Positions 12,502 to 64,000 of a stretch of DNA of 64,000 bases are shown here, piece after piece. The DNA is from an uncultured Pseudomonas sp. (GTDB lineage Bacteria > Pseudomonadota > Gammaproteobacteria > Pseudomonadales > Pseudomonadaceae). Position numbers and translations under genes: made by a program. The stretch is from contig NZ_CAMPHN010000002.1 of NCBI RefSeq assembly GCF_946885885.1, forward strand, positions 1 through 64,000, written 5' to 3'. The first letter of the stretch is position 1. Each line of letters opens with the position of its first letter. The notes under the pieces were generated by a model that saw nothing but the letters and a program-made list of their open reading frames with translations, was not told the origin of the DNA and did no database searches.

Positions 12502-12667
12502 TCCGCGCCACCGAAGTTAAAGTATAAAGCGAATGATATTATAGTGATATTATGCGTGGCTAGCCTATCAAGTAAAAACAGCAGAAAAGTGACGCTAGTA
12601 CTCTCGGGACTCGCTTTACGTGGGTTGTGGTGCACGGTTGAAGCCAGTTAATCAGGGAGGATTTCCT

Positions 12668-41357: not shown

Positions 41358-41377
41358 TATGTGTACACATGGGCATA
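41358..41377 (+). promoter_or_regulatory. Candidate ArsR-family operator upstream of the AroA-like gene
   Basis: TATGTGTACACATGGGCATA contains the perfect 12-bp palindrome ATGTGTACACAT. Without gaps it matches the sequence between the -35 and -10 of the local arsR gene: shared positions read ATGTG.A....TG.GCAT, and all but one of the remaining positions differ only by transitions. It lies about 75 bases before the first gene of the putative arseno-organic operon, as expected for repression by the local ArsR protein. Confidence 0.5.
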
Positions 41378-41450
41378 TGTTGATGTATGCTGCCGTCCGC
41401 TTGTTATTGGCTCAACGAGCCTTCGGATTGTTTTGTGATGGAGTACAGAC

Positions 41451-42740
41451 ATGGACTGCCTGCCGTTAATCCGCAATAAACGCGCCGATGCCTACGAGGC
41501 GCATATCCCCGGTTCCAAATCCTTCACCAATCGAGCGCTCATCCTCGCCGCCCATAGGCTGGGTCGCACCACCATTCATAACGCGCTGATCTGCGACGAC
41601 ACCTGCCTCTTGGCGAAGGCGTTGGATGCGTTCGGCGGTTTGCATGTCGAGCAGCATGCCGATTCCTTTGTGGTGGAGCGCACTTCTGAGCGTCTGACCG
41701 CCCCCGAGCTGCCGCTATTCATGGGCGGTGCCGGCACGCCCGCGCGCCTGATCCTGGCGTTTGCTTCCGGTGTCGAGGGGGAAACGCTGGTCACCGGCAA
41801 TGCACGGCTTAGCGAGCGGCCGATGCAGGACATTCTGAAAACCCTCGGCGATATCGGCATCCGCTATGAGTGCCTGAAACTCTCCGGCTGCCTGCCCGTG
41901 CGGATTCAGGGCGGCAAAATCCGGAAGAGCGATTGGCAGGTCAACGGCAGCGTCAGCAGCCAGTTCCTGACCAGTCTGCTGATTCATGCCTCCCAGCAGT
42001 CGCAGTTCGCCAGCCTGGACGTTCGGGTCAAGGGCCATCTGGTCTCCGAGCCTTACGTCAATATGACTCTATCGATGATGAATAGCGTGGGGCTGCGCGC
42101 CGAAAAGGTCGCCCAGGGCCACTACCGCGTTTATCCGGGGGCGGTGAACTGCCGCGATATTCGCGTGGAAGTGGATGCCTCCGGCATGTCCTATCTGTTG
42201 GCGGCCGCGGTGCTGACCCAGAGCACGGTGAGGGTTCCGGGTATCGACCTGGCATCCGCCCAGGGCGATGTCGGGCTGTTGCGCATTTTCGAGCAGATGG
42301 GCTGCGAGTTGCGCGAAGAAGACAATGCCGTGGTGCTGACGGGCAAGCCGCTCAGTGGCCTCGAAGTCGACATGGAAATCATGCCGGATGTGGTACTGAC
42401 CCTGGCGGTGGTGGCCACGCAGGCGGCCGGCCCGGTGACCATCAGCAATATCGCCAATTTGCGTATCAAGGAGTGCGATCGCATCGCCGCCTGTTGCGCC
42501 GAGCTAGCGCGATTGGGCGTTAAGGTCGATGAAGGCGAGGATTGGTTGCGCGTCTACCCGGCCGACGTCTTCACGCCGGCGTGTATTCATTGCTACGACG
42601 ACCATCGCGTCGCCATGGCGTTTTCGTTGCTGGGGCTGATCGCACCGGGAATTACGGTGGCGGAGCCCGCCTGCGTTTCCAAATCCTTCCCGGGCTACTG
42701 GGCCGAGATGCAGCGTTTCGTCGATTTCCACGCAGCCTGA
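41451..42740 (+). CDS. EPSP-synthase (AroA) paralog, candidate arsenoenolpyruvate synthase
   Basis: The 429-residue protein has the normal AroA length. Enolpyruvyl-transferase residues are kept: PGSKSFTNR, ARLSERP, SVSSQFLTSLL, EPYVNMTL, Asp in IMPDVVLT, Glu in RIKECDR, DDHRVAM and Lys in CVSKSFPGY. The PEP-site loop is altered: family GNAGTAMRPL reads GGAGTPARLI at 92-101, changing the Asn and the Pro known for glyphosate response. It lies first in a cluster with a PstSCAB-like importer, an iPGM-like enzyme, PKSs and ArsR. That context matches the AroA homolog proposed in Streptomyces to join arsenate to PEP. The activity is inference; an ordinary EPSP synthase cannot be excluded from sequence. 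Confidence 0.8.
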   Translation: MDCLPLIRNKRADAYEAHIPGSKSFTNRALILAAHRLGRTTIHNALICDDTCLLAKALDAFGGLHVEQHADSFVVERTSERLTAPELPLFMGGAGTPARLILAFASGVEGETLVTGNARLSERPMQDILKTLGDIGIRYECLKLSGCLPVRIQGGKIRKSDWQVNGSVSSQFLTSLLIHASQQSQFASLDVRVKGHLVSEPYVNMTLSMMNSVGLRAEKVAQGHYRVYPGAVNCRDIRVEVDASGMSYLLAAAVLTQSTVRVPGIDLASAQGDVGLLRIFEQMGCELREEDNAVVLTGKPLSGLEVDMEIMPDVVLTLAVVATQAAGPVTISNIANLRIKECDRIAACCAELARLGVKVDEGEDWLRVYPADVFTPACIHCYDDHRVAMAFSLLGLIAPGITVAEPACVSKSFPGYWAEMQRFVDFHAA

Positions 42741-42779
42741 GCTGCATCCATTAATTTCAACTGAAAGGGACTTATTGTT

Positions 42780-43556
42780 ATGAAAGTATGGGCAGGATTG
42801 TTGATGGCCATGGTTGCCGGATGGGCGAACGCCGAAACCATCACCTTGGCGGGCAGTAGCACCATCATGCCGCTAATGGAACAAATGATGCCGACGCTGC
42901 AAGCGCATGGCATCGATGCACGCATCCAGGGTGGCGGTTCCGGCGCCGGGATCAAGAGCACCAAGATGGGCATGGCGCAGATCGGCATGGTTTCCCGGGC
43001 GTTGACCGAGGACGAAAGCAAGGACTTCGATCATCTGGTCATCGCCCGCGATTGGGTGGTGCTGATCGCCAATAAGCAGCGAAACCTCAGCGACATCACA
43101 ACGCAGCAGGTCGTCGATATCTACAGCGGCAAAGTCAGCACCTGGGACGACGGCGAGCCGATCCATGCGGTCGGCAAGGAAGCGGGGCGCGCGACCAAGG
43201 AAGTGTTCGACGCCCACTTCGATCTGCTCGGCAAAACGCGCAAGGACCTGATCATCATCGGCGCCAACGGCCAGGCCATCACCTCGGTCGCCAACGACAA
43301 AAATGCGCTGGCCTATGTCTCCTATGCCGATGCCGAAGAAGCGGTGCTCAACGGCGAAAGTATCCGCATCCTGACCCTCGATGGCGAAAGCGGTACGCCG
43401 GAGAACGTCGCCGCGGGCAAGTACCTGCTGGCGCGCGAGCTTAACCTGGTGTTCCTGCGCAAGAACGCGGCGCTTAAAGAGCGTATGCGCCTGGTTCTGA
43501 GCGATGAGGCTGCGCGTAAGGTATTTCTCGATCACCACGTGATGCCGGTGCTCTGA
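42780..43556 (+). CDS. PstS-like oxyanion-binding protein, candidate arsenate binder
   Basis: The 258-residue protein has a signal peptide (MKVWAGLLMAMVAGWANA) and the PstS-2-type fold: ITLAGSSTIMPLMEQ, IQGGGSGAGIKS, IGMVSRALTEDE and VIARDWVVLIAN. In phosphate binders a later loop usually reads R-E-x-GSGTR; here it reads KEAGRATK (residues 133-140), so two of the oxyanion-contacting small residues and the Arg are changed. It feeds the permeases that follow. Given the cluster context, it may bind arsenate rather than phosphate; this is inference. Confidence 0.85.
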   Translation: MKVWAGLLMAMVAGWANAETITLAGSSTIMPLMEQMMPTLQAHGIDARIQGGGSGAGIKSTKMGMAQIGMVSRALTEDESKDFDHLVIARDWVVLIANKQRNLSDITTQQVVDIYSGKVSTWDDGEPIHAVGKEAGRATKEVFDAHFDLLGKTRKDLIIIGANGQAITSVANDKNALAYVSYADAEEAVLNGESIRILTLDGESGTPENVAAGKYLLARELNLVFLRKNAALKERMRLVLSDEAARKVFLDHHVMPVL

Positions 43557-43616
43557 CAACGCCCCACCCCGAACTCTCGGCTGGACGGGCCCGCCCGTTG
43601 ATATGGAAGTCATGTT

Positions 43617-44414
43617 ATGTACTGGATTACGGTCATATTGGCGCTGCTGCCCGTACTGATTGTGCTGTTCCCGGTCTGGAAGTCCTTGCCGTTCTTCGCC
43701 GGCATGCCCGCCACGGCCTGGTTGCAGCTGGATTGGGCGCCGGATAACGGCGATTTCGGCATCGGCGTGGCACTGTTCGGTAGCCTCTATATCGTGGCGC
43801 TGGCGTTGCCGCTGTGTATCCTGCTGGGCTGGCTGATGAGCCTGCAGTTGGCGGAAAACCGCAATCACTGGTTGGCCGGTGTGACCGTGTCGGTGCTCGA
43901 AGTCTGGGTATCGATACCTTCGGTGGTGGTCGGTGTCTGGGCTTTGTCCCAGTTGGCGCCGTTGGTCCGCGCCATCGAGGGTTCCGGCTATTGTGTGCTG
44001 ACCGCGGCCCTGGGGTTGACCCTGTTGATCTTCCCCACGGCCACGTTGCTGTTCTATCGCAGTTACACGGCGCATCAGTCTCGGTTCCAGGGGCTGGAAA
44101 AAACCTTCGCGCTCAATTCACTCGATCGCACGCTGTACTTTTTCAAAAGCCAGCCAGCCTTGCTCATGTCCACCATCAGTTACTGTTTCTGCCGGCTGTT
44201 CGGCGAAACCCTGGTGGTGTTGATGTTGGCGGGCAATAGCGTGCAGGTCACCGGTTCGCCGTTCGACAGCGTGCGTACCCTGACCGCGACCATCGCCCTG
44301 GAGATGGATTACGCCAGCGGCATGCATGAAACGGCGCTGTTCGCCTTGGCCTCGATTTGCCTGGTGGTGATTCTGCTGGTGTTGCTGCCCCAGTTCAGGA
44401 GTCGCCATGTTTAG
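43617..44414 (+). CDS. PstC-like ABC transporter permease
   Basis: The 265-residue protein has six membrane spans. The cytoplasmic loop just before the last spans (SRFQGLEKTFALNSLDRTLYFFKSQPALLMS, then RLFGETLVVLMLAGNS) is the EAA-type coupling helix of PstC proteins. It is the first permease of the oxyanion importer. The next gene starts inside its last codons (ATG at 44407). Confidence 0.87.
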   Translation: MYWITVILALLPVLIVLFPVWKSLPFFAGMPATAWLQLDWAPDNGDFGIGVALFGSLYIVALALPLCILLGWLMSLQLAENRNHWLAGVTVSVLEVWVSIPSVVVGVWALSQLAPLVRAIEGSGYCVLTAALGLTLLIFPTATLLFYRSYTAHQSRFQGLEKTFALNSLDRTLYFFKSQPALLMSTISYCFCRLFGETLVVLMLAGNSVQVTGSPFDSVRTLTATIALEMDYASGMHETALFALASICLVVILLVLLPQFRSRHV

Positions 44415-45186
44415 ACGGCAATGGCTGCTCTGGGCTTACCTGGCGCTGACCCTGGTTTTCATTGGTTTCTTCGTCGGACCCGTGGTGATCAAAACCACCA
44501 CCTTGGGCATCGTCGTGGGTACCTTGGTGGTGACGGTGGGAGCGGCGCTGATCGCGTTCTTCCCCGCCTATCTGCTGGCCGGGGTGCTGGCCAATATCAT
44601 GCCCGCGCCGCCCGCGGTGCGGGTCATGGCGCAGTTGTCTTCGTACATTCTGGCCGCCATGCCTTCGATCATTCTCGGGGTGATCGGCTTTCTGGTGTTC
44701 TGCAACCTGTTGGGGCTGGGCTGGTCGATGCTGTCGGCCATGCTCACGCTGTTGTTGCTGCTCTATCCGACCATGGTGACGGCGTTTCTTCAGGTATTGG
44801 CGCCCTTGCGTGAGCGCTACTTGCTGCATGCGAAAGCCTATGGCGTCGGGCCGCTGGAGTTCCAGTTCCGGCTGATGCTGAAGATGAACCGCAAGCAGTT
44901 ATTCGAGGTTTTCGTGCTGGGCTGGGCCACGTCCTTGGGCGACACCGCCGCGGTCATGCTGACCTGCGGCGCCCTGACCGGTTTCCCAAGCAGCCTGCTG
45001 GATTCGGTACGGCTGATCAATTACCACATCTACATTCTGGCCATGGATACGCCCGGCGGCATGATCGAGGCGAAATCGCTCTCGCTATTGCTGCTGCTCG
45101 GGCTGATTTCCATCCTGGTGATCCCCCGCGTCGCATTGACCCTTTATCAAAAAAGAACCGCACGAACCGCACAAGGATGGGCTTGA
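44407..45186 (+). CDS. PstA-like ABC transporter permease
   Basis: The 259-residue protein has six spans and an EAA-type loop RERYLLHAKAYGVGPLEFQFRLMLKMNR, followed by GWATSLGDTAAVMLTCG, which resembles the PstA stretch after the loop. It overlaps the PstC-like gene by eight bases and pairs with it to form the channel of the importer. Confidence 0.87.
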   Translation: MFRRQWLLWAYLALTLVFIGFFVGPVVIKTTTLGIVVGTLVVTVGAALIAFFPAYLLAGVLANIMPAPPAVRVMAQLSSYILAAMPSIILGVIGFLVFCNLLGLGWSMLSAMLTLLLLLYPTMVTAFLQVLAPLRERYLLHAKAYGVGPLEFQFRLMLKMNRKQLFEVFVLGWATSLGDTAAVMLTCGALTGFPSSLLDSVRLINYHIYILAMDTPGGMIEAKSLSLLLLLGLISILVIPRVALTLYQKRTARTAQGWA

Positions 45187-45187
45187 G

Positions 45188-45982
45188 ATGAATAGAGCTA
45201 TCGATTTCTCGTTCGAACATTTCCTCGATCACAGTCCGAACCACGGCATCGAAATCCGTGATTTGCATGTCAGCGCGGGCAGCCGCCGGATTCTCGAAAT
45301 ACCCCAGCTGCGCATCCCGAAAACCGGGGTGATCGCCATGATGGGGCCGTCCGGCTGCGGCAAAAGCACGCTGCTCAAGGCGCTGGCCAGCCTGCATGAC
45401 GACTCCATACGGGTGAATGGCCATATCGATGTGCGCTGTTGTGCCGAGGAAGTCAGGATTCCCTCCTCGCGCTTCGCCATGATCTGGCAGCAACCCACCG
45501 TATTTCCCTGTTCGGTGTACGACAACCTGAAGATTCCGTTGCGTAAACGCGGTATTTCCCGTGGCGAATGGCCCGCGCAGATGAGTCATGCCCTTGAGCA
45601 GACCGGGCTGTTGGCGGAGCTGGGCAGCGCTTGGATGCGGGTCAATGCGCAAACCCTTTCCGGTGGCCAGCAGCAGCGCCTGTGCATCGCCATGGGGCTG
45701 CTGAAGAACGCCGACATCCTGCTGTTCGACGAGCCCACCTCGGCGCTCGATCCGATTTCCACGGAAAAGATCGAACGCATCATGGCCCGCCTGGGTCGGG
45801 AAAAGCTGGTGCTGCTGGTGACCCACAGTGTCGGCCAGGCCAAGCGTCTAAGCGAATACACCGCGATGTTTTGTTGCGTGGACGGTGTGGGGCAGCTGTG
45901 CGAATACGGCGCCACTCAACAGATCTTTAAAATGCCGCGCGCGGAACAGAGCCGGCGCTTCATTCAGTTGGAGGTGGGTTGA
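45188..45982 (+). CDS. PstB-like ABC transporter ATPase
   Basis: The 264-residue protein has Walker A GPSGCGKST, a Q-loop in WQQPTVFP, signature LSGGQQQRLCIAMG, Walker B ILLFDEPTSALDP and switch His in LLVTHSVGQA. The sequence VFPCSVYDNLKIPLR and the short DDSIRVNGHIDV segment are PstB-like. It powers the oxyanion importer. The stop overlaps the start of the next gene (TGATG), tying import to the phosphoglycerate-mutase-like enzyme. Confidence 0.92.
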   Translation: MNRAIDFSFEHFLDHSPNHGIEIRDLHVSAGSRRILEIPQLRIPKTGVIAMMGPSGCGKSTLLKALASLHDDSIRVNGHIDVRCCAEEVRIPSSRFAMIWQQPTVFPCSVYDNLKIPLRKRGISRGEWPAQMSHALEQTGLLAELGSAWMRVNAQTLSGGQQQRLCIAMGLLKNADILLFDEPTSALDPISTEKIERIMARLGREKLVLLVTHSVGQAKRLSEYTAMFCCVDGVGQLCEYGATQQIFKMPRAEQSRRFIQLEVG

Positions 45983-47463
45983 TGAACGCGGAGAAAGGCG
46001 TCTTGCTGATTCTCGACGGCATGGGCATGGCGCCGGAGCAGGGGCGCGCGGCCAGCGCCACCACCGCCGAGCACATGCCCTATGTGCATAGCCTGATGCA
46101 GCGGCATGGCCACGCCCTGTTGCAGGCCTCGGGCAGTGCCATTGGCCTGGATGAAGGCGTTGCCGGCAATTCCGAGGTCGGCCATCTGACCATCGGCTCG
46201 GGCGAGGTGTTGCAATCGACCTTGGCGCGGGTGCGCGAGGGTTATCACAGCGGCGTCTGGCTGCAATCGCCGGTGTGGCAACGGCTGGCGCAGAAACAGG
46301 CCGTCCATGTCGTCGGCCTGCTCTCCGACGCCGGTGTGCACGCCCATTGGCAGACCCTGAGCATGGCCGCGCAAGTCGCGCGCCAGGCGGGTTTCGCCAA
46401 GGTCTATCTGCACCTGCTGTTGGACGGCGTGGACAGCCAGGCCGGCAGTGCACCGGCGATTCTCGATGAGCTGCGAGCGGCCCTCGAAAGCCTGCAGGAC
46501 TCCTCTGTGGTGCTGTCCAGCGTCATGGGCCGCAAGTGGGGCATGGACCGCAGCGGTAATTGGGCGCTCACCGACGAATGCTGCCGAGCCCTGATGGATG
46601 CCAGTCGCGACAATGTCTTCAGTCCCGACGCGTTGCGCGAGCACCTGGCCGGCGACAGCGAAGCCAGCTTCCCGCCGGCCTATTGCGCCGGCGGCCAGTC
46701 CATCGCTGCGGGCGATACGGTGCTGCTGACCCTGCACCGCGCGGATCGGATTTCCCAATTGGCCAAGCGCCTGAACGAGCACTGCCGCGTGTTGTCGCTG
46801 ATCGAACTCAAGCAGGACGCGGTGCCGGTGGACGATGTGTTCTTTCCCACCCGTGCCTACGACAACGGCCTGGTCCGGCAGTTGAAGCGCCTGGGCTACC
46901 GCACCACGCGTCTGGCCGAACAGTGCAAGTTCCCCCATGTCACTTATTTCATGGATGGCATGAGCCCGGATAGCGAGGCGGAAACCATCATGATTCCGAC
47001 CATCAGCGACGATGAAATCCGCCTCAATCCGCTGATGTCGATCCAACAAATGACCGACACCCTGGAGACCTTGCTGGCCAGCCGCGACGGTTCCCATGCG
47101 CTGATCGTCAACATCCCCAACCTCGATCAGGTGGGGCACACCGGCGATCTTGAATTGACCGCCCGCGCGGCCCGTTGCGTCGATGAGCTGGTGAGCAAGG
47201 TGGTGACCTGGTGTGAGCTGCATCAATGGCAACTGGCGATCACCGCCGACCACGGCAACGCCGATCGCATGCGCGATGAAAACGGTAAAGCGCTGGGTTC
47301 GCACTCCGCCAACCCGGTGCCGCTGTTGCTGATCGATCGGCACAAGCCGGTCGAGTGGGCCGCCCACCAAGGCACGCTGGCGAATGTCGCGGCGAGTTTC
47401 CTCGGCCTGCTCGGCCACACCGCGCCCAGTCATTTCGAGCCGGCACTGATCGCTATCGCTTGA
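45982..47463 (+). CDS. Cofactor-independent phosphoglycerate-mutase-like enzyme, candidate arsenoenolpyruvate mutase
   Basis: This 493-residue member of the alkaline phosphatase superfamily is close to iPGM in length. The metal and catalytic residues are retained: D12, S64 in GNSEVGH, H120 in SDAGVHAH, R184/R190 in GRKWGMDR, RADR, Lys in KFPHVT, NLDQVGHTGD, ADHGNAD and HSANPVP. The substrate-binding LDGRD of glycolytic enzymes is LDGVD here (V150), losing an Arg that contacts phosphoglycerate. Glycolytic iPGM is also not expected inside a PKS operon. In Streptomyces arseno-organic clusters an iPGM homolog was proposed to rearrange arsenoenolpyruvate into arsonopyruvate; that role is inferred here. 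Confidence 0.82.
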   Translation: MNAEKGVLLILDGMGMAPEQGRAASATTAEHMPYVHSLMQRHGHALLQASGSAIGLDEGVAGNSEVGHLTIGSGEVLQSTLARVREGYHSGVWLQSPVWQRLAQKQAVHVVGLLSDAGVHAHWQTLSMAAQVARQAGFAKVYLHLLLDGVDSQAGSAPAILDELRAALESLQDSSVVLSSVMGRKWGMDRSGNWALTDECCRALMDASRDNVFSPDALREHLAGDSEASFPPAYCAGGQSIAAGDTVLLTLHRADRISQLAKRLNEHCRVLSLIELKQDAVPVDDVFFPTRAYDNGLVRQLKRLGYRTTRLAEQCKFPHVTYFMDGMSPDSEAETIMIPTISDDEIRLNPLMSIQQMTDTLETLLASRDGSHALIVNIPNLDQVGHTGDLELTARAARCVDELVSKVVTWCELHQWQLAITADHGNADRMRDENGKALGSHSANPVPLLLIDRHKPVEWAAHQGTLANVAASFLGLLGHTAPSHFEPALIAIA

Positions 47464-47497
47464 TGCCATTAACCGTCATTCACAGGGAAGTTTCGCC

Positions 47498-50400
47498 ATG
47501 AATCGCCTTATCCCCCGTCACGCCGACTACCGCAATATGTTGGAACTGGTAGAGGACCGCGCGAGCGTCCTGGCGGATAAACCGCTGTATACCTTCCTAC
47601 GCGACAACCTGGACGAAGCCGGGGTGATGAGCTTCGACGGGTTGCGGGCGCGGGCGATGAGCCTGGCGGCGGAGCTACAGCAGCTGGCGCAGCCGGGCGA
47701 GCGCGTACTGCTGTTGTTCCCCGCCGGCTTGGCCTATATCGAGGCGTTTTTCGCCTGCCTGTATGCTGGCTTGGTAGCGGTGCCGGCCTATGCGATCCAA
47801 TCGCCGAAGGACCACGACCGGCTGAATTCGATCGTCCGCGATGCCGGCGCGAAATTGATTCTGACCACCCAGGAACAGGAGCCGGCCACGGCGGCCTGGT
47901 TGGCGCGCGGCGAAATCCATGCGCCGCTGGTGCTGTGCAGCGACACCCTGGAACGCCGCCATCAATGGCAGCAACCGGATATCGGCCCGGACACCCTGGC
48001 GTTTCTGCAATACACCTCAGGCTCCACCGGCAGCCCCAAGGGCGTGATGGTCAGCCACCGCAACCTGCTGCATAACTCCGAACTGAGTTACCGCGCCTTC
48101 AATCACAGCGATGCGACCGTCGGCGCCAGTTGGTTGCCGCCCTATCACGACATGGGCTTGATCGGCGGCGTTCTGCAACCATTATTCGCCGGGATTCCGG
48201 TGTACCTGATGTCGCCGATGACCTTCCTCAAGCGGCCGATCCGCTGGCTGGAAACCATCAGCCGTTATGGCGTCAGCAGCAGCGGCGCGCCCAACTTCGC
48301 CTATGATTTTTGCGTGCGGCGGGTCAGTGAAGCCCAGCGCGATAGCTTGGATCTGTCGTCCTGGCGGGTCGCCTTCAATGGCGCCGAACCCATTCACCAT
48401 GAGACCCAGCGCCGTTTCGCCGACTATTTCGCCTCGGCGGGTTTCCGTCCGCAAGCGATGGTGCCTTGCTACGGCCTGGCGGAAGCCACGCTGCTGGTGT
48501 CGGCCAATAGCTTCGATGCCGGCCCGCTGAGCTGCGCGGTGGATGCCGCAGCGCTCGAGGGCGGCGTGGGGCTGGCGCAGTACCCGCTGGAACCGCTGAT
48601 GGCCCTGGAGTCGGCCGTCGACAGCGCTCGGCAGATTCTGATCAGCAGCGGCGAAATCGCCTATGAGCACTGCGCGATCGTCAATCCGGAAACATCGATA
48701 GCTTGTCCGGATGGCAGCGTCGGCGAGATCTGGTTGCAAGGCTCGAGCGTCGCCCAAGGCTATTGGAACAAACCGCAGGAGACCCGCGAAACCTTCGCCG
48801 CGCGTATCCAGGGCCAGGACGGCGAGTACCTGCGCACCGGTGACCTGGGTTACCGGCTCGGCGATCAACTGATCGTCACCGGTCGCCTGAAAGAGCTGAT
48901 CATCATCAACGGCCGCAACCTCTACCCGCAGGATCTGGAACGCGGCCTGCAACAAAGCGACGAGCGCCTGCGCGAAGGCCACGGCGCAGCGGTGGGTTTG
49001 CTCGATAGCGAATCGGGCACCGAGCGCCTGGTGATCATTCAGGAAGTGGAGCGCAAGATCGGCGACGAGGAGACCTTGCGCGGCCTGGCGGATGGTATCA
49101 ACGCCTGTTTGCAGGAGCGTTTCCAGGTCACCCCTTATGCGACTCTGCTGATCGCCGCCTCCAGTCTGCCGAAGACCACCAGCGGCAAAATCCAGCGGCG
49201 CAAGGCGTTGCAGCAGATGAACGAGGGTAGCCTCAACCTGCTCTACGACTCGCGCGAGCGCGCCGCGCTGCAGGCGGCCGCGCCGGTGACGACACAAGCG
49301 TCGGAGCGGGTTGCGGCACCTTCGCTCGTGTCCTTCAGCCAGCGCCAATGGGAAGCGCAACTCGCGGTACTGGTCAAAGCCTATATGCCGGAAGGCACCA
49401 GCCCGGAACGCGATCAGCCGTTCCAGTCGATGGGCCTGGATTCCAAGCAGGCGGTGAGCATCGTCGGCGAACTGGAGGACCTCTACGGGCGCAGCCTCAA
49501 CGCCACCCTGTTGTTCGATTACCCCTCGATCGCAGCGCTCGCCGCCTATTTGGCTGGTGTCGACAGCCAGGCAGGCCTAGCGGAAAGTCGGCCCGTCGCC
49601 ACTGCGGAGCCCCTGGCGATTGTCGGCATGGCCTGCCGTTTCCCCGGCGCGCAGGACCTGGACGGTTTCTGGCGTCTGCTGCTAGGCAAGGAAAACGCCA
49701 TCCAGGAAATCCCCGCCGCACGCTGGGATTGGCGAGCGGTGCAGGGCGAAAACGGCGAAGCGGGCACTTCGCGCTCCGCCTATGGCGGCTTTATCGAGGA
49801 TGTCGAGGGCTTCGACGCGGCGTTCTTCGGCATTACGCCCAAAGAAGCGCGCTTGATGGACCCGCAGCAGCGCATCCTCCTGCAAACCGTTTGGCATGCG
49901 CTGGAGGACGCGGGCCTGTCGGTGGACACGCTGCGCGGCCGACCGGTCGGGGTTTATGTCGGCGCCTCGACCAACGATTACTCGCGACTGCTGGCGAACA
50001 CCGCGGATGCGGTCTCGCCGTGGTCCGGCACCTCCAATGCACTGTGCATCCTGGCCAACCGCGTGTCCTATCTGCTGGGCTTCAACGGCCCGAGCATTAC
50101 CAGCGATACCGCTTGCTCGTCGTCGCTGACCTCGTTGCATCTGGCAGCTCAGGGCCTGCGCGCCGGGGAAAGCGAGCTGGCCGTGGTGGCCGGGGTGAAT
50201 TTGATGCTGATTCCCGAGCTCCATGTGATTTTCTCCCAGGCCGGGATGCTCGCGCCGGATGGCCAATGCAAGACCTTCGATGACGCCGCCGACGGCTATG
50301 TGCGCGGCGAGGGTTGCGGCGTGGTGGTGCTCAAACCCCTGGCCCAGGCACAACGGGATCGCGACCGTATCTACGGCGTGGTCGACGCCAGCCAGATCAA

Positions 50401-54772: not shown

Positions 54773-54774
54773 CC

Positions 54775-57700: not shown

Positions 57701-57873
57701 CCCTCGACCTGCGGGCCAGCGTGCAGAAAGAATTGGGTTACGAGTTGTCCGCCACCTTGTTGTTCGATTACCCCAATGTGCTGTCGCTGGTGGACTACAT
57801 GGGCATCGAGCTGCTCCAGTTGTGGAGCGTGTCGCCGCTGGCCGAGGAGGCTGAAGCGCTTGCGGAAAACTGA
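54775..57873 (+). CDS. Type I polyketide synthase extension module (KS-AT-ACP)
   Basis: The 1032-residue protein. A short helical N-terminus (MEAFIEQLKSMDRNQLI) may dock to the first PKS. KS covers about 30-455: DTACSSS near 200, HGTGTPLGDPIE near 339, NFGHTESAAG. AT covers about 540-850: GHSFGE near 631, HAFHT near 731, malonyl type. A linker leads to an ACP with GIDSM near 971. There is no KR, DH, ER or thioesterase, so the chain should keep a beta-keto group and must be released by another protein or by attack of a nucleophile. The ATG at 54775 is used; an ATG at 54769 overlaps the previous stop. Confidence 0.94.
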   Translation: MEAFIEQLKSMDRNQLILTAAQLKKASLPEPIAVVGIGCRFPGGVHDPASFWDLVVEGRDAVTDLDDQRWRKEQFFSPRQDMPGRTYVNHMALVEDPDRFDAELFGIGRQEAELMDPQQRWLLEVSWHALEDAGIAPTGVKGQSGGVFVGLMNHDYEQLQHMRGDFDTISGYTAVGNSMAVAAGRLSYFFGLRGPSLALDTACSSSLVSVHLACQALRNKECEFALAGGVNAILSPTTTIAESKALMLSPSGHCHTYDAAADGYVRGEGCGMVVLKRLSDARKAGDRIYAVIRGSAVNQDGNSQGLTAPNGLSQQAVIGAALRQANVSPDAVGFVETHGTGTPLGDPIEIGALLGSYGATPRAVPLQVSTVKTNFGHTESAAGIAGLIKLVLARRHGVVPKLNRFQTLNPHIQLDANKLTLPLENQPWPVEAPFGGVSSFGFSGTNAHIIVGSAPAPAQDTSAPPAQSEYDLICLSAQHAQPLQELERRYADELAQASDSVALAAASRKQRAHLKQRSAWVIKQGRVVDSFSGALTSRVPLTAWMFSGQGSQHAGMAKGLYDYNQVFRATLDECAAHLDKLMPHPLYSLLWGEHMALLDDARYTQPAIFAVEVALSRMWQAQGVKPDYLLGHSFGEYAAACLAEVFSLEDGIRLIWARASSVADHCERGGMVAIKGDLQTAQSWLEDFPQLQLAAINTANSHVLAGPLAAIEQLLDALTEQGVGHKRLSVSHAFHTPMMQAMQESFLAVARTVEYRRPRIPFVSTMTGKVETDLITTPEYWAQHILSPVRFASAVDTALQQRVKCWFEVGPSVTLNAMARQCVEQESEHTWIWSMKEEVDDARSLLSAMARLYCAGHEVDLSGLDSGSPARQVDLPKYPFRDTRYWFEAERSFAYSASDVALRADRAASVQASEEEDTASRGQQLAATLASLDTEEQWLTLVNMTRSALARVLEIEEEEIPLDADLFDLGIDSMKALDLRASVQKELGYELSATLLFDYPNVLSLVDYMGIELLQLWSVSPLAEEAEALAEN

Positions 57874-57908
57874 CCGATAAGCCAATTAGTTGCCAATTTG
57901 TTTATGGG

Positions 57909-57922
57909 CGATGCTAGCATCG
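57909..57922. promoter_or_regulatory. 14-bp perfect palindrome upstream of arsR
   Basis: CGATGCTAGCATCG, lying 13 bases before the arsR -35 element. It could be a second regulator site or an overlap of transcript end signals; no T-run follows, so it is not a classic terminator. Confidence 0.3.
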
Positions 57923-57935
57923 ATCTCAATATATA

Positions 57936-57965
57936 TTGACATGTGCATGTGTGTGCATGAATAAT
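57936..57965 (+). promoter_or_regulatory. Sigma-70 promoter of arsR
   Basis: TTGACA (perfect -35) and AATAAT (five of six for -10) with an 18-base spacer, about 18 bases before the arsR ATG. The spacer is filled by the candidate ArsR operator, the usual geometry for an autoregulated repressor. Confidence 0.65.
57940..57959 (+). promoter_or_regulatory. Candidate ArsR operator inside the arsR promoter
   Basis: CATGTGCATGTGTGTGCATG lies between the -35 and -10 and aligns without gaps to the sequence at 41358-41377 before the AroA-like gene. Binding here would block polymerase and give autorepression. Confidence 0.5.
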
Positions 57966-57982
57966 CGATATGGAGAGCCCAT

Positions 57983-58306
57983 ATGAGCGAATTGCACCAG
58001 ATTTTCGATTCAAAGTTGTTCAAGGTCCTTAGCGAGCCGGTGCGCATCGACATTCTCAAGGTGTTGGCGCAGCACGGCCAGATGGACATCGCAGAGATCA
58101 CCGGCTACTTGCCGCAGGATCGCTCCGTGGTTTCGCGGCACCTCAGCGTCATGCACGACGTGGGGGTGCTGAAGGCGGAAAAGCGCGGCAGGCACATATT
58201 TTACGAACTCGACGGGCTGGCAATTTTGCACCGTTTGGAAGGCATCGCTAAAGCGATAAGGCATTATTTCGAGAGCTGCTGCCCCGAAGCGCTCAAGGAC
58301 GAGTAA
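57983..58306 (+). CDS. ArsR-family transcriptional repressor with a C-terminal vicinal Cys pair
   Basis: The 107-residue winged helix protein has FKVLSEPVRIDILKVLAQHG, recognition helix DRSVVSRHLSVMHDVGVL and wing RGRHIFYELD. The classic ELCVC arsenite site of E. coli-type ArsR is absent. Instead Cys99-Cys100 (FESCCPE) lie in the last helix, similar in position to the C-terminal thiol sites of some ArsR proteins that bind As(III), such as that of Acidithiobacillus ferrooxidans. Candidate operators lie in its own promoter and in front of the AroA-like gene. It likely derepresses the cluster on arsenic exposure; the inducer is inference. Confidence 0.9.
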   Translation: MSELHQIFDSKLFKVLSEPVRIDILKVLAQHGQMDIAEITGYLPQDRSVVSRHLSVMHDVGVLKAEKRGRHIFYELDGLAILHRLEGIAKAIRHYFESCCPEALKDE

Positions 58307-58361
58307 TGGTTTAGCGCCGCCCCAAACGCGCCAGTTCGTCCTGACAGGCTCAGGAGGACGG

Positions 58362-60755
58362 ATGTTCAACGGACTGGTTGTATTTTCGGTAAAGCGGCCC
58401 TGGTGGGTCATTCTCGTATCGCTGATCGTCTTCGGGCTTTTCGCCAGCCAACTGCCGAAGTTGCAGGTCGATGGCCGGGTCGAGGCGCTGGTTCCCGAGC
58501 ACAACGCCCATGTGACCCTGCGCAATGAAATGGAGAAGGTGTTCGGCGCGGCCGGCTTCATCATTATCAGCGTCAGCGAAGACGAAGTGTTCAGCCAGCC
58601 GGTGCTCGCTTCGGCCTACGCGCTAAGCAAGCAACTGAGCCAATCGCCTCACGTTCGTGAGGTGCATTCGATTTTCTCCAAGCAATATCTCCAGGGCGGT
58701 GGCGGTACCTTCGAGGTCGGCCAGATCGTCGATGACCCCGACTCCGGGCGCTTCAATCCCGTGCTCATTGAGCAACGCCTGGCGAGCGACCCGGTATACA
58801 GCGGCAACCTGCTCAGCCTCGACGGCAAGGGATTGGCGTTGCTGGTGGAGTTCAATACCGGCACCGCCGACCAGGTCGCCACCGAACTGGTCGAGCAAGC
58901 ACTGGAACAGGCTGGCCTGCAAGGACGCTGGCCGATCGCCGGGCTGGCGGTGATTCAGCATGAAATGAAGCGCTATATGGACCGCGACATGGGGGTGCTG
59001 ATGCCCCTGTTTCTGGTGGTGCTGGCCGCTTTGTTGTTCTTGTCTTTCCATACCGCTCGCGGCGTGCTGGTGCCCTTCGCGCCCATCCTGCTGGCGGTGG
59101 TGGCGAGCACCGGTTTGATGAGCATGCTGGGCATCAAGATCACCATGATCACCAATCTGGTGCCCATGCTGATCATCGCGGTGGGCTCGTCCTATTCGAT
59201 CCACTTCCTGAACGAATACTACCGACAAGTCGGTATGGCCCCGGAGGCATCCTCGGCGGCGATTCTGCGCGCAACCGGCCAACATATCGGGCCGATCATT
59301 CTGTTGGCCGCGGCCACGACCTTTCTCGGTTTCATCTCCAATATCTTCAATCCGATAGTCGCCATTCGCGATTTCGCCACCACCCTGGGCTTTGCCGTGG
59401 TGGTGTTGTGGTTGGCCAACCTGACGCTGCTGCCGGCCATCGTCAGCCTGCTGAAACCGGTCACGGGCGTACTTAACGGCCACGCCAAGGGCCGCTTCAA
59501 CCGCCTGCTCGATCGTGTGCTGGAACTGCTGGGGCACGGTATCGTCAACCGGCGCTGGTGGGTGCTGGGCCTGGGAGCGCTGCTGGTCGGCAGCTCGGCG
59601 TACTACCTGCAACAGGTGAAAGTGGAATCGTCGGGGCTGAGCTTCTTCAAGGAAGACTCGAACCTGGTGCGTTCGTCCCGGGCGATCTCGCAATCATTCG
59701 GCGGCGTGGTGGGTTTCAACTTCGTCATCGATACCGGCAAGGTGGATGGCGCCAAGGATCCCGCGGTACTGAGCACTTTGGCCGCATTCAAGGATTGGCT
59801 GCACAGCGAGTATGGGGACCAGGTCAAGGTAACCCTGTCGCTGGCCGACTACATCAAGCAAATGAGCGGTGCCTACAACGGCGACAAGAGCTATCACCGG
59901 ATTCCCGAATCCGCCGGGGAAGTGGCCCAGTACATCGAGATCTTCAGCTGGGGCGCCGACGTGCGTGAAAGCCTGCGCAACGTGGTCGACGAGGACTTCC
60001 GCTTGCTCAGCTTCGGCGGCCGCTTCGCCTTGATCGAATACCCGGACGGCAGCTACCGGGAAGAAAGCCTGCAGAACCAGAAACGCATCATCGATGCCGC
60101 CAGCGCCTGGCTGAAGGCGAACTTGCCGGCAGGGGTGGAAGCCAAGCCCTACGGCGACATCATGATCGTCTCGGATATCAACGACAGCATCATCCGCGGC
60201 CAGATCATCTCCGTAGTGTTGGCGCTGATCTGCGTGCTGGTCGTCACCACCCTGGTATTCCGTTCGCTGCTGGGCGGCATCATCAGCCTGATTCCGGTAT
60301 CCCTGGCGGTGGTGGTGAACTTCGGTTTCATGGGGCTGTTCGGGATTCCGCTGAACATCGCCACCGCGCTGGTCTCGGCGATGGCGATCGGTATCGGCAT
60401 CGACGACACCATTCATTTCCTGATGACCTTCCAGCAGCAGGTTCGCCAGCACGGCAATTATCAGCGTGCCTTTGTCGACACCCTGCAGCAAAGCGGCCGG
60501 GCGATCATCTACACCTCCCTGGCCTTGATCGGCGGTTACCTGGTGCTGATGGTCTCGCCCTTCACCCCGATCATCTACTTCGGTGTGTTGAACATCGTCA
60601 CCATCCTGTTCGCCACGCTCGGCACCTTGCTGTTGCTGGGGGCGGTGATTCTGGTGCTACAGCCGCGTTTTCTGTTGCGCGGCGCGGCGCTAAGCCAAAC
60701 GCCGCTGCCGGAGCTGCAGCCGCGCGCCGTTAAATCCGATGCCCAGGAGGCTTGA
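58362..60755 (+). CDS. RND/MMPL-family exporter
   Basis: The 797-residue protein has two repeated halves, each with one leading membrane helix, a periplasmic domain and a five-helix sterol-sensing/MMPL bundle: about 205-365 (LVPMLIIAVGSSYSIHFLNEYYR) and about 610-770 (ALVSAMAIGIGIDDTIHFLMTF). The family moves lipids, hopanoids and lipid-like products across or out of the inner membrane, driven by proton flow. It lies 55 bases after arsR and is followed by LolA-like and beta-barrel-like genes, so it may export the acyl-polyketide product of the cluster. Confidence 0.92.
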   Translation: MFNGLVVFSVKRPWWVILVSLIVFGLFASQLPKLQVDGRVEALVPEHNAHVTLRNEMEKVFGAAGFIIISVSEDEVFSQPVLASAYALSKQLSQSPHVREVHSIFSKQYLQGGGGTFEVGQIVDDPDSGRFNPVLIEQRLASDPVYSGNLLSLDGKGLALLVEFNTGTADQVATELVEQALEQAGLQGRWPIAGLAVIQHEMKRYMDRDMGVLMPLFLVVLAALLFLSFHTARGVLVPFAPILLAVVASTGLMSMLGIKITMITNLVPMLIIAVGSSYSIHFLNEYYRQVGMAPEASSAAILRATGQHIGPIILLAAATTFLGFISNIFNPIVAIRDFATTLGFAVVVLWLANLTLLPAIVSLLKPVTGVLNGHAKGRFNRLLDRVLELLGHGIVNRRWWVLGLGALLVGSSAYYLQQVKVESSGLSFFKEDSNLVRSSRAISQSFGGVVGFNFVIDTGKVDGAKDPAVLSTLAAFKDWLHSEYGDQVKVTLSLADYIKQMSGAYNGDKSYHRIPESAGEVAQYIEIFSWGADVRESLRNVVDEDFRLLSFGGRFALIEYPDGSYREESLQNQKRIIDAASAWLKANLPAGVEAKPYGDIMIVSDINDSIIRGQIISVVLALICVLVVTTLVFRSLLGGIISLIPVSLAVVVNFGFMGLFGIPLNIATALVSAMAIGIGIDDTIHFLMTFQQQVRQHGNYQRAFVDTLQQSGRAIIYTSLALIGGYLVLMVSPFTPIIYFGVLNIVTILFATLGTLLLLGAVILVLQPRFLLRGAALSQTPLPELQPRAVKSDAQEA

Positions 60756-60758
60756 GCC

Positions 60759-61523
60759 ATGAAAAGCGTTCTCTCCGTATTACTGATGCTCGCACTGCCC
60801 GCTGTGGCCAGTGCGCAGGACGCCCGGGAACTGATGGACAAGGTCAACAACCGCTATGTCGGCGATGACGCGCTCAGCGAAGTCACCCTCGAGTACACCA
60901 GCAAAAGCGGCAGCAGCAAGGAATACCAGCTGCGCATCTGGAACATCGAGGAAAGCGCCGGCAACAAGACGCTGCTCAAATACACCGCGCCGAACTTCAT
61001 GCGCGGCAGTGGCGTGCTGGTGCATGGCGAGGACAAACAAGAGACCTTGCAGTGGTTGTATCTGTCGCAGGCGGCGAAGAAGGAAGCGCGCAAAATCGCC
61101 AGTTCCGAGCGCGGTAGGCCACTGTTCGGCACCGACATCTTCTACGTGGATATCGAAGCCAAAGCCACTGCGGATTTCACCTACCAACACCTGCGCGATG
61201 AAGTGCTCGACGGCATCGCCTCGGTCGTGGTCCAGGCCGTGCCGAACAAGCCGGACTATCCCTACGAGCGGACGATTTCCTGGGTCGACCCCGAGCGCTT
61301 GCTGGAGCTGAAAGTCGAGTACTACCAGGACGGCAAATTGCTCAAGACCCTGATCGCCGAACAGACCGAACAGATCGAAGACGTCTGGACCGTGACGCGC
61401 TCCAAGGTGGTGAATGCCAAGCAAGGCTCCAGCACGGTGATGAACATCGACAAGATCGATTACAACCTCGGGTTGCAGGTCGATCAATTCAGCTTCAAGG
61501 CGTTAACGGCCAGAGAGATTTGA
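60759..61523 (+). CDS. LolA-like outer-membrane lipoprotein-sorting family protein
   Basis: The 254-residue protein has a signal peptide (VLLMLALPAVASAQD) and the LolA-like opening ARELMDKVNNRYVGDDALSEVTLEYTSKSG. An antiparallel sheet with RIWNIEESAGNKTLLKYTAPN and a conserved SSERGRPLFGTD segment follow. COG2834-type proteins of this kind often sit directly after MMPL exporters, as here (three-base gap). It probably carries a lipidic substrate through the periplasm. Confidence 0.87.
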   Translation: MKSVLSVLLMLALPAVASAQDARELMDKVNNRYVGDDALSEVTLEYTSKSGSSKEYQLRIWNIEESAGNKTLLKYTAPNFMRGSGVLVHGEDKQETLQWLYLSQAAKKEARKIASSERGRPLFGTDIFYVDIEAKATADFTYQHLRDEVLDGIASVVVQAVPNKPDYPYERTISWVDPERLLELKVEYYQDGKLLKTLIAEQTEQIEDVWTVTRSKVVNAKQGSSTVMNIDKIDYNLGLQVDQFSFKALTAREI

Positions 61524-61526
61524 TTC

Positions 61527-62786
61527 GTGTCGATGAGAGAGGGATTGCTCGCACTGCTGTTATCGGCACCTGTATTGGCCAGTGCCGGATGGAATCACAC
61601 CGGCACCGTCAGTCTGCGCCTGGATGGACGCGAGGCGGGCGAATCCGCTTTGCTGGGCCGCGCCGCCGTGGAAACCTCGGGCGAACTGTCCGAGCGTTTG
61701 ACCTTGCAAATGGAAGTCGAAGGCAACGGCGAAACCTCGGTGGAGGGTGCCAGTGCTGAGCTGCGCACGCTGCTGTTGAACTGGCAGGTACACGACGCCG
61801 TGCACCTGTTCGCCGGTTGGCAGCAGCAGGTATGGGGGCGGGCCGATGAAGTGAATCCGCTGGATTTCGCCTTCGCCGAGGACACCCGCTGGTATTACCT
61901 GGAGCCACGTGCGCAACGCAAATTGTCGCGCTTGTCCGCCGGCACGCGCATCGAGTGGGGCGATTCCAGCCTGGCGCTGTTTTATTTCCCGGAGTCCTCG
62001 CGCAACCACTTGGCCGACGACGATAGCATCTGGTGCGAGCGGGCCTGCGATTTTGCCGACCCCGATTTTCAGCGTGAGCAATTCGCCGCGTTGGGCTTTG
62101 CCGTCAATACCTCCAAGGCATCCGCGCCGCGGCACGAGTGGGCGGGACGCTTCACCAGTCGCGCGGGCGGGCTGGACTACGGCGCCGCGGTGTATTACGG
62201 CACCGACCACCGCCAGCGGGTGGAACGGACATTCGTCGCGCCCGGCGTGGTGGCGCTGGAGACCAAGGAATACCAAAGCCTGTCTTATGGTCTCGATGCG
62301 GCCTACGCGCTCGGCGATGTCGTGGCCCGCGCCGAGCTGGCGCGTTACCAGGACGTGAAGCTGTATATCGATCCCGAGTTGCCACGCTATCTGGCCGACG
62401 ACGACGGCCTGACGGAAACCGATGCGACCGCGGCGATCCTGTCGTTGGATTACACCGCCCCTGGCGATATTTATCTGAACGTCCAATACCAGGATGTCTG
62501 GCTGGGCGAGCCCGAAGACGAGGTGATCCTGCCGCGGGAGTTGAATCTGGCCACGTTTCAGATCGCCAAAACCTTCTATGAGCCGGAGGTCAAGATCGAA
62601 TGGACCACGCTTTACGACATAGGCAAAGAAGGCGGTTTCAGCAAGCTGGAAGCGCGTTGGCAGATGGACATGCAATGGTTGTTATCCGTCGGCTGCCTGG
62701 TTTTCGACGGTGAGGACGGTGCCGAGGATTACGGCGCCTTTCGAAAAAACAACAGCGTTTATCTAGCGACGCAATATCAATTCTAG
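61527..62786 (+). CDS. DUF1302-like outer-membrane beta-barrel protein
   Basis: The 419-residue protein has a signal peptide (ALLLSAPVLASAGW), then repeated amphipathic strands such as GTVSLRLDGREAG, LEPRAQRKLSRLSAGTRIEWG and FQIAKTFYEPEVKIEWTTLYD, with a terminal Phe (VYLATQYQF). It resembles the DUF1302-type proteins that accompany MMPL and LolA-like genes. With those two it would complete a path from inner membrane to outer membrane. The start could also be the ATG a few codons further in. Confidence 0.78.
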   Translation: MSMREGLLALLLSAPVLASAGWNHTGTVSLRLDGREAGESALLGRAAVETSGELSERLTLQMEVEGNGETSVEGASAELRTLLLNWQVHDAVHLFAGWQQQVWGRADEVNPLDFAFAEDTRWYYLEPRAQRKLSRLSAGTRIEWGDSSLALFYFPESSRNHLADDDSIWCERACDFADPDFQREQFAALGFAVNTSKASAPRHEWAGRFTSRAGGLDYGAAVYYGTDHRQRVERTFVAPGVVALETKEYQSLSYGLDAAYALGDVVARAELARYQDVKLYIDPELPRYLADDDGLTETDATAAILSLDYTAPGDIYLNVQYQDVWLGEPEDEVILPRELNLATFQIAKTFYEPEVKIEWTTLYDIGKEGGFSKLEARWQMDMQWLLSVGCLVFDGEDGAEDYGAFRKNNSVYLATQYQF

Positions 62787-62795
62787 GGTGGGGTC

Positions 62796-63704
62796 ATGGC
62801 CAGTTTATTGTCGAAAGTCTATGTGAAGATGAAAGAGCTACCGCGCAAGCAATCGGCCCGATTGCTGCCGCTGAAACGCCGTGAACTGCGCGCCGTATTG
62901 AAACTGTTCTATGAAGAAGGCTGGGTGGATTTCACCCTGGCGGATCTGGAGTTCATGTACAACATGAGCCCGGATACCTGCTTCAAGTTCGCCATGGACG
63001 ATGGCGTGATGATCGGCGTTACCTTCGCGCTGCTGCTGGATAACGGCGTGTGTTACCCGAATTCCAGCGTGATCGCGGAGAAGTACCGTAACCAGGTCAA
63101 GTTTCACGGCGAGGTGCTGAAGTACGCCGATGCACTGAAGAAAATCGCCAAGTACGAAATCATGTACGCGGCCCATTGGCTGGTCGACCTGTACAAGGAT
63201 GGTATGGGGTATCGGCCGGCGGGCAAGATCAAACGTCTGCTGTTGACCCGCGTGGCTAACGCCAGCGCTGAAACCTTCGAGCCGCTCAATCAGGGCAACC
63301 TCGAGCAAATCGCCGAGTTTCTGCAGCCGGTCTATAACAGCGAGCGCCGCTCCATTCTGCGGCATGCCCTGGAACTGGAGTTCAAGACCGCATGCGTAGT
63401 GCGCGACGGCCAAGTCGCAGGCTTCGCCATGCGCCGCGCCTTGCCCAAATACGACCAGATCGGGCCGGTGGTCAGTGCCGACCCGGCGCTGGCAGCCGCG
63501 CTGATCGCCCAGCTGCTCGAGCCCGATAACCAGCGTCCGGTGATCATCGACGGCGATATCCAGCGCTTGCCCGCCTTGTTACGCCAAGCCGGTATCGACT
63601 TTACCGAGAGCGAAGTCGAGATGACCAAAATGGTGCGCGGCGACGAATCGTTCCACGAGAACGAAAACATGATCCACGCGATTTACTCCCATTACCTGAG
63701 TTGA
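62796..63704 (+). CDS. GNAT-family N-acyltransferase-like protein
   Basis: The 302-residue protein has two GNAT-like halves. The first (about 27-150) contains LEFMYNMSPDTCFKFAMDDGVMIGVTFALLLDNG, and the second (about 160-295) contains CVVRDGQVAGFAMRRALPKYDQIGPVVSADPALAAALI, resembling the Acetyltransf_18 arrangement. It may acylate or release a product of the cluster, or protect against it; the substrate is unknown. It lies nine bases after the barrel gene, so it is part of the same run. Confidence 0.7.
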   Translation: MASLLSKVYVKMKELPRKQSARLLPLKRRELRAVLKLFYEEGWVDFTLADLEFMYNMSPDTCFKFAMDDGVMIGVTFALLLDNGVCYPNSSVIAEKYRNQVKFHGEVLKYADALKKIAKYEIMYAAHWLVDLYKDGMGYRPAGKIKRLLLTRVANASAETFEPLNQGNLEQIAEFLQPVYNSERRSILRHALELEFKTACVVRDGQVAGFAMRRALPKYDQIGPVVSADPALAAALIAQLLEPDNQRPVIIDGDIQRLPALLRQAGIDFTESEVEMTKMVRGDESFHENENMIHAIYSHYLS

Positions 63705-63709
63705 ATGTC

Positions 63710-64000
63710 ATGGAACGGTTTCAACTTAGCGTGGAAGAGCCGGCGCCTGCCGGAGCGATTGGATTATTGCTCCCGGTGCCTCCCGAAACGCACTTTCAGC
63801 AACCGATTGCCGCGCGCTTATTACACGGCGGCGATGAAGTAACGCTGCTACACGAGGCGCGCCAAGGGCAAGCCGCTTTTGTCCTGAAGGTGCGGGGCGA
63901 TTCGCGTATCGAACAGCCGCTGGTGGAATACCGCATGGCGTTGCAGAGCGCCGCCGCCAATCCCCGGCACTATGGGCTCGCCAATGGCGCCAGTCTGGCC
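63710..64000 (+). CDS. Partial protein, cut off by the window end
   Basis: The first 97 residues are visible, starting at an ATG five bases after the previous stop. The sequence has strands such as GAIGLLLPVPPETHFQQPIAA and LVEYRMALQSAAA, loosely resembling the N-terminal domain before transglutaminase-like folds. That is a weak resemblance and I give no function. Its spacing makes it a further member of the cluster operon. Confidence 0.5.
   Translation, partial: MERFQLSVEEPAPAGAIGLLLPVPPETHFQQPIAARLLHGGDEVTLLHEARQGQAAFVLKVRGDSRIEQPLVEYRMALQSAAANPRHYGLANGASLA

Follow-up and report, generated by a model that had tools for sequence, protein, structure and literature searches.

A putative arsonopyruvate-polyketide gene cluster in an uncultured Pseudomonas, compared with the bsn cluster of Streptomyces

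In the closest described system, the bsn cluster of Streptomyces lividans and S. coelicolor, the genes bsnM, bsnN and bsnJ are required for synthesis of the arsenic product bisenarsan; the published proposal has 5-enolpyruvylshikimate-3-phosphate (EPSP) as enolpyruvyl donor and has arsonopyruvate decarboxylated by BsnJ, and five ArsR regulators are reported in the S. coelicolor cluster (according to the accessible parts of PMC12159101 and PMC8062868, respectively). Arsinothricin is also a bacterial natural product with a carbon-arsenic (C-As) bond and comes from a proteobacterium, but it is built by other genes (arsQML), and the accessible part of PMC8552651 names no AroA, phosphoglycerate mutase or polyketide synthase (PKS). 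The 64,000-nucleotide stretch of an uncultured Pseudomonas sp. analyzed here (contig NZ_CAMPHN010000002.1, positions 1 to 64,000; "the window") ends in 14 genes, all on the + strand from 41451 to the window end, that share with the bsn cluster an AroA-like plus independent phosphoglycerate mutase-like (iPGM-like) pair, type I PKS genes and an ArsR regulator. It seems likely that these genes specify arsenate import, synthesis of arsonopyruvate and its joining to a fatty-acid-primed, exported polyketide. The arsonopyruvate half, which is supported by phylogeny and by neighboring genes in relatives, we regard as very likely, and the export and the arsenate specificity as plausible.

The sequence-only reading had placed AroA-like, Pst-type importer, iPGM-like, PKS and regulator genes on one strand with short gaps; all are present on the + strand in that order, and the gaps in gene order are 39, 60, -8, 1, -1, 34, -4, 109, 55, 3, 3, 9 and -4 bp. 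The likely iPGM start is the ATG at 45982 that overlaps the pstB-like stop codon (45979 in the earlier call), and for the second PKS the ATG at 54769 (4-bp overlap) is a likelier start than the open reading frame (ORF) start at 54298. The features are:

41348..41381, no strand: inverted repeat, candidate operator of the cluster, with 17-nt arms that are 76% complementary and hold the perfect palindrome ATGTGTACACAT at 41359-41370
41451..42740, + strand: AroA-like enolpyruvyl transferase, predicted arsenoenolpyruvate synthase (BsnM-like; family scans, tree, motifs)
42780..43556, + strand: PstS-like oxyanion-binding protein (family scans)
43617..44414, + strand: PstC-like permease (NCBIfam; no Pfam match)
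44407..45186, + strand: PstA-like permease (family scans)
45188..45982, + strand: PstB-like ATPase (family scans)
45982..47463, + strand: iPGM-like metalloenzyme, predicted arsenoenolpyruvate to arsonopyruvate mutase (BsnN-like role; family scans, tree, motifs)
47498..54772, + strand: FAAL-ACP-KS-AT-DH-KR-ACP polyketide synthase, 2424 aa (family scans, motifs, tree)
54769..57873, + strand: KS-AT-ACP polyketide synthase, no thioesterase (family scans)
57923..57942, no strand: inverted repeat upstream of the ArsR gene, candidate operator
57983..58306, + strand: ArsR/SmtB-family regulator with a C-terminal Cys-Cys pair (family scans)
58362..60755, + strand: RND/MMPL transporter of HAE3 type, predicted to export a lipid or the product (family scans)
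60759..61523, + strand: LolA-like protein (PF17131)
61527..62786, + strand: protein without family match, N-terminus signal-peptide-like by eye, possible outer-membrane barrel
62796..63704, + strand: GNAT-type acyltransferase, possible releasing or N-acylating enzyme (PF18014, 43.8 bits)
63701..64000, + strand: ORF truncated at the window end, without a family match

The last frame is open at base 64000 and the cluster continues past it; the database entry for the window PKS (P0241) gives a longest contig of 83,219 bp, so the cluster is incomplete in the window.

The AroA-like protein matches PF00275 (346.5 bits) and TIGR01356 (377.8 bits, cut-off 287.25), and it keeps 19 of the 19 Escherichia coli EPSP synthase positions checked, which we take to be those of the active site. 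In a tree of 46 rows (the window, 18 hand-chosen copies from 120 database hits and 27 locus copies) it lies inside a 28-row set with support 99/99; this set and six copies from actinobacteria, Paenibacillus and a Chloroflexota metagenome-assembled genome (MAG) together form 34 rows that are separated from 12 housekeeping rows (87/76), and the motif DAS.MSY is found in all 34 of the former and none of the latter. Branching with housekeeping EPSP synthase and glycolytic iPGM had been named beforehand as the outcome that would speak against the proposal, and by tree and motif the AroA-like protein falls outside the housekeeping copies, on the same side as the bsn-context copies. These are actinobacterial genes among which S. 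lividans BsnM was not itself identified. A non-housekeeping AroA occurs in 13 of the 15 genomes of the matches listed (nine of the window's set and four bsn-context), and 10 of those 13 also have a second, housekeeping-type AroA (E 1e-15). One database protein of 731 aa (P0213) is a PstB-like ATPase fused to an AroA-like enzyme, with 33% and 53% identity to the respective window proteins.

The iPGM-like protein stands farther from its family (TIGR01307, 295.8 bits, under the cut-off of 330.65). In a tree of 58 rows (the window, 17 of 120 hits and 40 of 105 locus copies, four bsn-context genes being entered twice) it belongs to a 29-row set with support 100/100 that lies apart from the housekeeping enzymes, and the bsn-context copies form a separate set of 10 rows (six distinct genes; 100/99). 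Three private motifs mark the window protein and its 120 best hits, namely DG[VTI]D[SA] (118/121), E-x-CKF (118/121) and NLDQ[VI]GH (120/121); none is present in the 18 housekeeping copies, 17 of which have DGRD in place of the first. Here again the protein is set apart from housekeeping iPGM. Judged from its residues, the catalytic core is intact and the substrate-side arginine is lost, because the di-metal ligands and the nucleophilic serine are kept and DGRD is changed; the roles of these residues are those we presume from iPGM structures. Among the same 15 genomes, 11 have a window-type iPGM, nine of them together with a housekeeping copy, and the remaining four have the bsn-context iPGM only. 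Plasmid or phage origin of this gene was considered and rejected: the 44 plasmid and 21 phage-collection records that match are all below 60% identical, those listed (20 of the 44 and 3 of the 21) are annotated as gpmI/gpmM-type or unannotated with 33.5% for the best plasmid match listed, and a search of viral contigs with the iPGM-like protein gave no match.

The two genes travel together, often with an importer. Among the best 120 hits to each protein, the longest contig reaches 10 kb for 57 AroA hits, and 20 of these sizes recur identically among the iPGM hits, when 0.011 coincidences are expected under a log-uniform model; this evidence is equality of longest-contig size, the contigs themselves being unread. 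The gene order AroA-PstSCAB-iPGM is conserved in loci L004, L007 and L011, and PstSCAB-AroA-iPGM is found in L008 and L009. On the bsn side, Pst-type genes follow AroA-iPGM in two actinobacterial relatives (L067 and L076). The Pst-type genes of the Kiloniellaceae locus L016 are on the opposite strand, about 5 kb off. All four window importer subunits score under their NCBIfam cut-offs and are thus divergent: PstS-like TIGR02136 115 bits (cut-off 206.6), PstC-like TIGR02138 91.8 (196.45), PstA-like TIGR00974 50.5 (193.45) and PstB-like TIGR00972 198.2 (343.2). PiT/CysP-type oxyanion permease genes, with scores far under the cut-offs, lie near AroA-iPGM at L033:11546-12637 and L047:7508-8011 and are a possible alternative importer. 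The genome list behind these pair counts holds only the matches listed, and the counts are therefore lower bounds. The module is rare, with every count including its center genome: 2 of 369 sampled gammaproteobacterial-class genomes in each of two overlapping samples (no closer relative within them), 3 of 294 from the planctomycete phylum, 1 of 385 from the Kiloniellaceae genome's class, 1 of 40 from the family Kangiellaceae and 6 of 24 from the order to which G001 belongs. Locus L005, titled Candidatus Omnitrophota, carries a gammaproteobacterial module 58% identical to that of the window; this is probably a binning error, and it was left out of the phylum count.

The tie to arsenic comes from the relatives. 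Eighteen genomes and 14 control genomes were searched with the ArsI/CadI profile NF041414, whose ArsI members we take to be C-As lyases. ArsI scores over the cut-off in 9 of the 18 and 1 of the 14, and eight of the nine have a copy less than 25 kb from the pair: about 55 bp away in G615, 60 bp in G007, 114 bp in G009, 0.6 kb in G731, 1.2 kb in G005, 5.3 kb in G013, 20 kb in G014 and 23 kb in G015 (it is unlinked only in G011). In L016 the iPGM gene is followed by ArsR, AioB (174.1 bits, cut-off 95.65) and AioA (1195.3 bits, cut-off 359.05) genes. In Paenibacillus prosopidis (L033) ArsR-ArsB-ArsC-ArsI genes, all over their cut-offs, precede AroA-iPGM. Acr3 is less telling (over the cut-off in 8 of the 18 genomes and 6 of the 14 controls, with G012, at about 5 kb, as the one linked case). 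L016 also has a glycine/sarcosine N-methyltransferase-like gene (9192-9992; 183 bits, cut-off 350) between AroA and iPGM.

The first PKS of the window has a FAAL domain fused to ACP-KS, as in FAAL-type PKSs. Catalytic residues are in place in the KS, DH, KR and ACP domains (the final proline of the DH motif is missing), and both AT domains carry GHSxG and HAFH, of which we take the latter to be the malonyl-type signature; the PKS motifs are likewise those we assume to be catalytic. The two modules are predicted to lengthen a fatty acyl chain by a C2 unit that is reduced and dehydrated and by another left unreduced, with the product still bound to an ACP. Four full-length relatives of the FAAL-PKS, P0245 (55% identical), P0247 (47%), P0256 (42%) and P0261 (42%), have longest contigs of 717264, 36829, 92780 and 51903 bp, exactly those of AroA and iPGM hits. 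A quick tree was made of the window and 39 of 119 other hits, after removal of 80 with a best match that fell short of the FAAL-to-AT span; the window protein, three 91-92% identical copies and the four relatives form an 8-row set (SH-like approximate likelihood-ratio support 100). The common FAAL-ACP-KS-AT start is shared with other FAAL-PKS lipopolyketide synthases, and the window type is its own set tied to pair-bearing contigs. As far as matching longest-contig sizes can show, then, the expected company of this PKS with the AroA/iPGM pair bears out.

A pathway can be proposed, in part by role analogy with the bsn enzymes. The Pst-type ABC importer would take up arsenate, the AroA-like enzyme, with its active-site residues in place, would transfer the enolpyruvyl group onto it, and the iPGM-like enzyme, acting like BsnN, would pass the arsenic group from oxygen to serine and then to C3, giving arsonopyruvate. 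FAAL likely loads a fatty acid on ACP, after which module 1 would add, reduce and dehydrate a C2 unit and module 2 would add another. Because no thioesterase is present, chain release is likely by a nucleophile, perhaps an arsonopyruvate-derived amine or alcohol, and might involve the GNAT or a gene farther along the contig. The RND, LolA-like and family-less proteins would export the product, and ArsR would be an arsenic-responsive switch.

After arsonopyruvate the window and the bsn cluster appear to part. The Streptomyces logic proposed from the sequence holds for the AroA-like enzyme, PKS and ArsR, and for the iPGM-like enzyme as far as its presence and its separation from housekeeping copies go, but not for a BsnJ-type decarboxylase: Pfam scans of 40 window ORFs found no phosphonopyruvate decarboxylase (the cluster extends past the window). 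Because the six gammaproteobacterial relatives have none over the cut-off either (see below), the next step must differ or be encoded beyond the window. TIGR03297 is over the cut-off in 7 of the 15 genomes (the four with planctomycete-type loci and three of the four actinobacteria), and is not over it in the Kiloniellaceae genome or in actinobacterial G012. The window cluster also differs from bsn in its distinct iPGM set, its RND/LolA-type genes, its Gram-negative host and its FAAL-primed PKS with two malonyl-type AT domains in place of the trimethylnonenoate PKS. Because the decarboxylase was not found and a joint mutase clade is neither shown nor rejected, we consider it a bsn variant that falls short of full membership. 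No proteobacterial AroA/iPGM/PKS arsenic cluster was found among the titles and abstract starts of the best-ranked open-licence literature.

Other loci share the pair with the window and differ in its neighbors. These are L006, L009 and L010 of Planctomycetota, L008, L016 of Kiloniellaceae, L033 of Paenibacillus and L007 of Kangiellaceae; a Pst-type importer adjoins the pair in L007-L009, as in the window, and is a few kb away in L016, but the further neighbors are phosphonopyruvate decarboxylase (Ppd) plus PhnW, AioAB, or an aminotransferase plus ATP-grasp ligase, and the stretches of L006-L010 and L016 have no match to the window's PKSs. Ppd and PhnW-type aminotransferase genes lie near AroA-iPGM at L008:12064-14390, in L009, L010 and L006, and at L033:13510-15800 (there after the pair, on the opposite strand), and such loci are predicted to make 2-aminoethylarsonate. 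In L007 (8849-11365) ATP-grasp L-amino-acid-ligase-like and aspartate-aminotransferase-like genes directly follow iPGM; an arsonoalanine-containing dipeptide is the predicted product. The gammaproteobacterial MAG loci L001 (2860-5747) and L003 (2465-5332) have enolase-, GAPDH- and histidine-phosphatase-like genes in the AroA slot before PstSCAB-iPGM (families scanned in L001 and assigned to L003 by similarity). Speculatively, these may offer another route to arsenoenolpyruvate through arsenate-using, glycolysis-like steps.

Several observations weigh against the reading of the window as an arsono-polyketide cluster. The single ArsR gene is its only arsenic-type gene, and its product lacks the ELCVCDL-type motif, which we take to be an ArsR motif; the arsenic neighbors described above come from other lineages. 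In the gammaproteobacterial relatives (G001-G004, G006 and G010) the profile search found no ArsI, the stretches around the pair hold no window-like PKS, and none of the six has a phosphonopyruvate decarboxylase over the TIGR03297 cut-off; the only arsenic-type genes in the scanned gammaproteobacterial neighborhoods are ArsR, in L007 and L011. G001 and G003 lack the clade AroA, its slot in L001 and L003 being occupied as described. The low importer scores show divergence, not arsenate specificity, and no Pst-type set was matched near the pair in L010, L049 or L053 (L006 has a weak PstS only). The 34-versus-12 split of the AroA tree (87/76) is not strongly supported and three of its housekeeping rows are very long branches. 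For the iPGM-like protein, a joint clade of the window and bsn-context sets is neither shown nor rejected (approximately unbiased test, p 0.507), and all six bsn-context copies retain DGRD. For the clade AroA, a housekeeping role is possible in G007, G008 and G015, in which it is the sole match at E 1e-15; the same holds for the clade iPGM in G006 and G007, in which no other iPGM was matched. Finally, the Ppd and PhnW near the pair in other phyla are by name phosphonate enzymes.

One alternative, which we think unlikely, is that arsenic module and PKS are independent neighbors, which would make a small water-soluble arsonate and an arsenic-free FAAL-PKS lipid. Only 1 of 17 loci with the pair, actinobacterial L049, matches the window's PKSs, which also speaks against a general link of pair and PKS; the other 16 lack a match, the aminotransferase, ligase and Ppd-PhnW loci above have tailoring genes of other kinds, and no gene that would join arsonopyruvate to an acyl chain is seen in the window. 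This is countered by the gap of only 34 bp between the iPGM and FAAL-PKS genes and by the FAAL-PKS relatives, a clade of their own, on at least four further longest contigs that match AroA and iPGM hits. It is also unlikely that the module instead acts on phosphate, as a PepM-free route to phosphonopyruvate that feeds a phosphono-polyketide: the importer is of PstSCAB type and the Ppd and PhnW genes adjoin the pair in Planctomycetota and Paenibacillus, but ArsI lies close to the pair in eight of nine ArsI-bearing genomes, AioAB and ArsRBC are among its neighbors, and bsnM, bsnN and bsnJ are required for an arsenic product in Streptomyces (accessible part of PMC12159101). Family scans of the 14 genes found no phosphoenolpyruvate (PEP) mutase, the enzyme expected of a PepM-dependent phosphonate cluster. 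That the pair is a resistant spare EPSP synthase and phosphoglycerate mutase that guard core metabolism beside a PKS for an ordinary lipid is very improbable, since, for all the intact active-site positions, the TIGR01356 score over its cut-off and the three genomes where no AroA other than the clade copy was matched, both proteins fall outside the housekeeping enzymes and co-occur in different phyla, often accompanied by an oxyanion importer and by arsenic genes; plain housekeeping AroA and iPGM are ruled out by trees and motifs, though the clade copy is the sole one found in a few relatives.

Of the remaining genes, ArsR matches NF033788 (64.3 bits, cut-off 55), the resistance-nodulation-division (RND) protein matches TIGR00921 below its cut-off (230.9 bits; 351.9), and the LolA-like protein matches PF17131 (137.5 bits). 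The putative barrel at 61527-62786 has no Pfam or NCBIfam match, and its single-sequence structure model (mean pLDDT 30.8) was useless and not used. The palindrome ATGTGTACACAT is the sole match to its pattern in the window at up to one mismatch (0.03 expected), for a pattern picked after being seen. An exosortase/exopolysaccharide (EPS) cluster lies upstream, 662 bp before the AroA-like gene; its exosortase, at 12620-14224 within the EPS cluster at about 12-40 kb, is an XrtD match of VPLPA-CTERM type (564.8 bits, cut-off 400). For an EPS glycosyltransferase of the window, the best full-length matches among 340 sampled genomes are 43-44% identical; the closest relatives of the window point to a gammaproteobacterial origin.

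Returning to the arsono-polyketide reading, a broader version of it is tentative and, in our judgment, somewhat more doubtful than not: a portable arsonopyruvate module, present in Actinomycetota, Bacillota, Chloroflexota, Planctomycetota and Pseudomonadota, might be combined with varied tailoring, and in the window would lead to a decarboxylase-free, surface-sent, FAAL-primed arsono-lipid. As part of that tentative reading, AroA plus iPGM, often with a Pst-type importer, could play for arsenic the part that PEP mutase plays for phosphonates. Arsenic genes accompany the pair in several further phyla, and the window's lineage has its own FAAL-PKS clade. If the reading is right, the pair and the iPGM motifs would be a genome-mining handle for arsenic metabolites, a possible genetic origin would be suggested for some environmental arsenolipids, and C-As bond formation without S-adenosylmethionine enzymes would become testable with a second, distant enzyme pair. 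From the genes compared here, assembly of arsenic natural products by this route probably extends beyond Streptomyces and its relatives.

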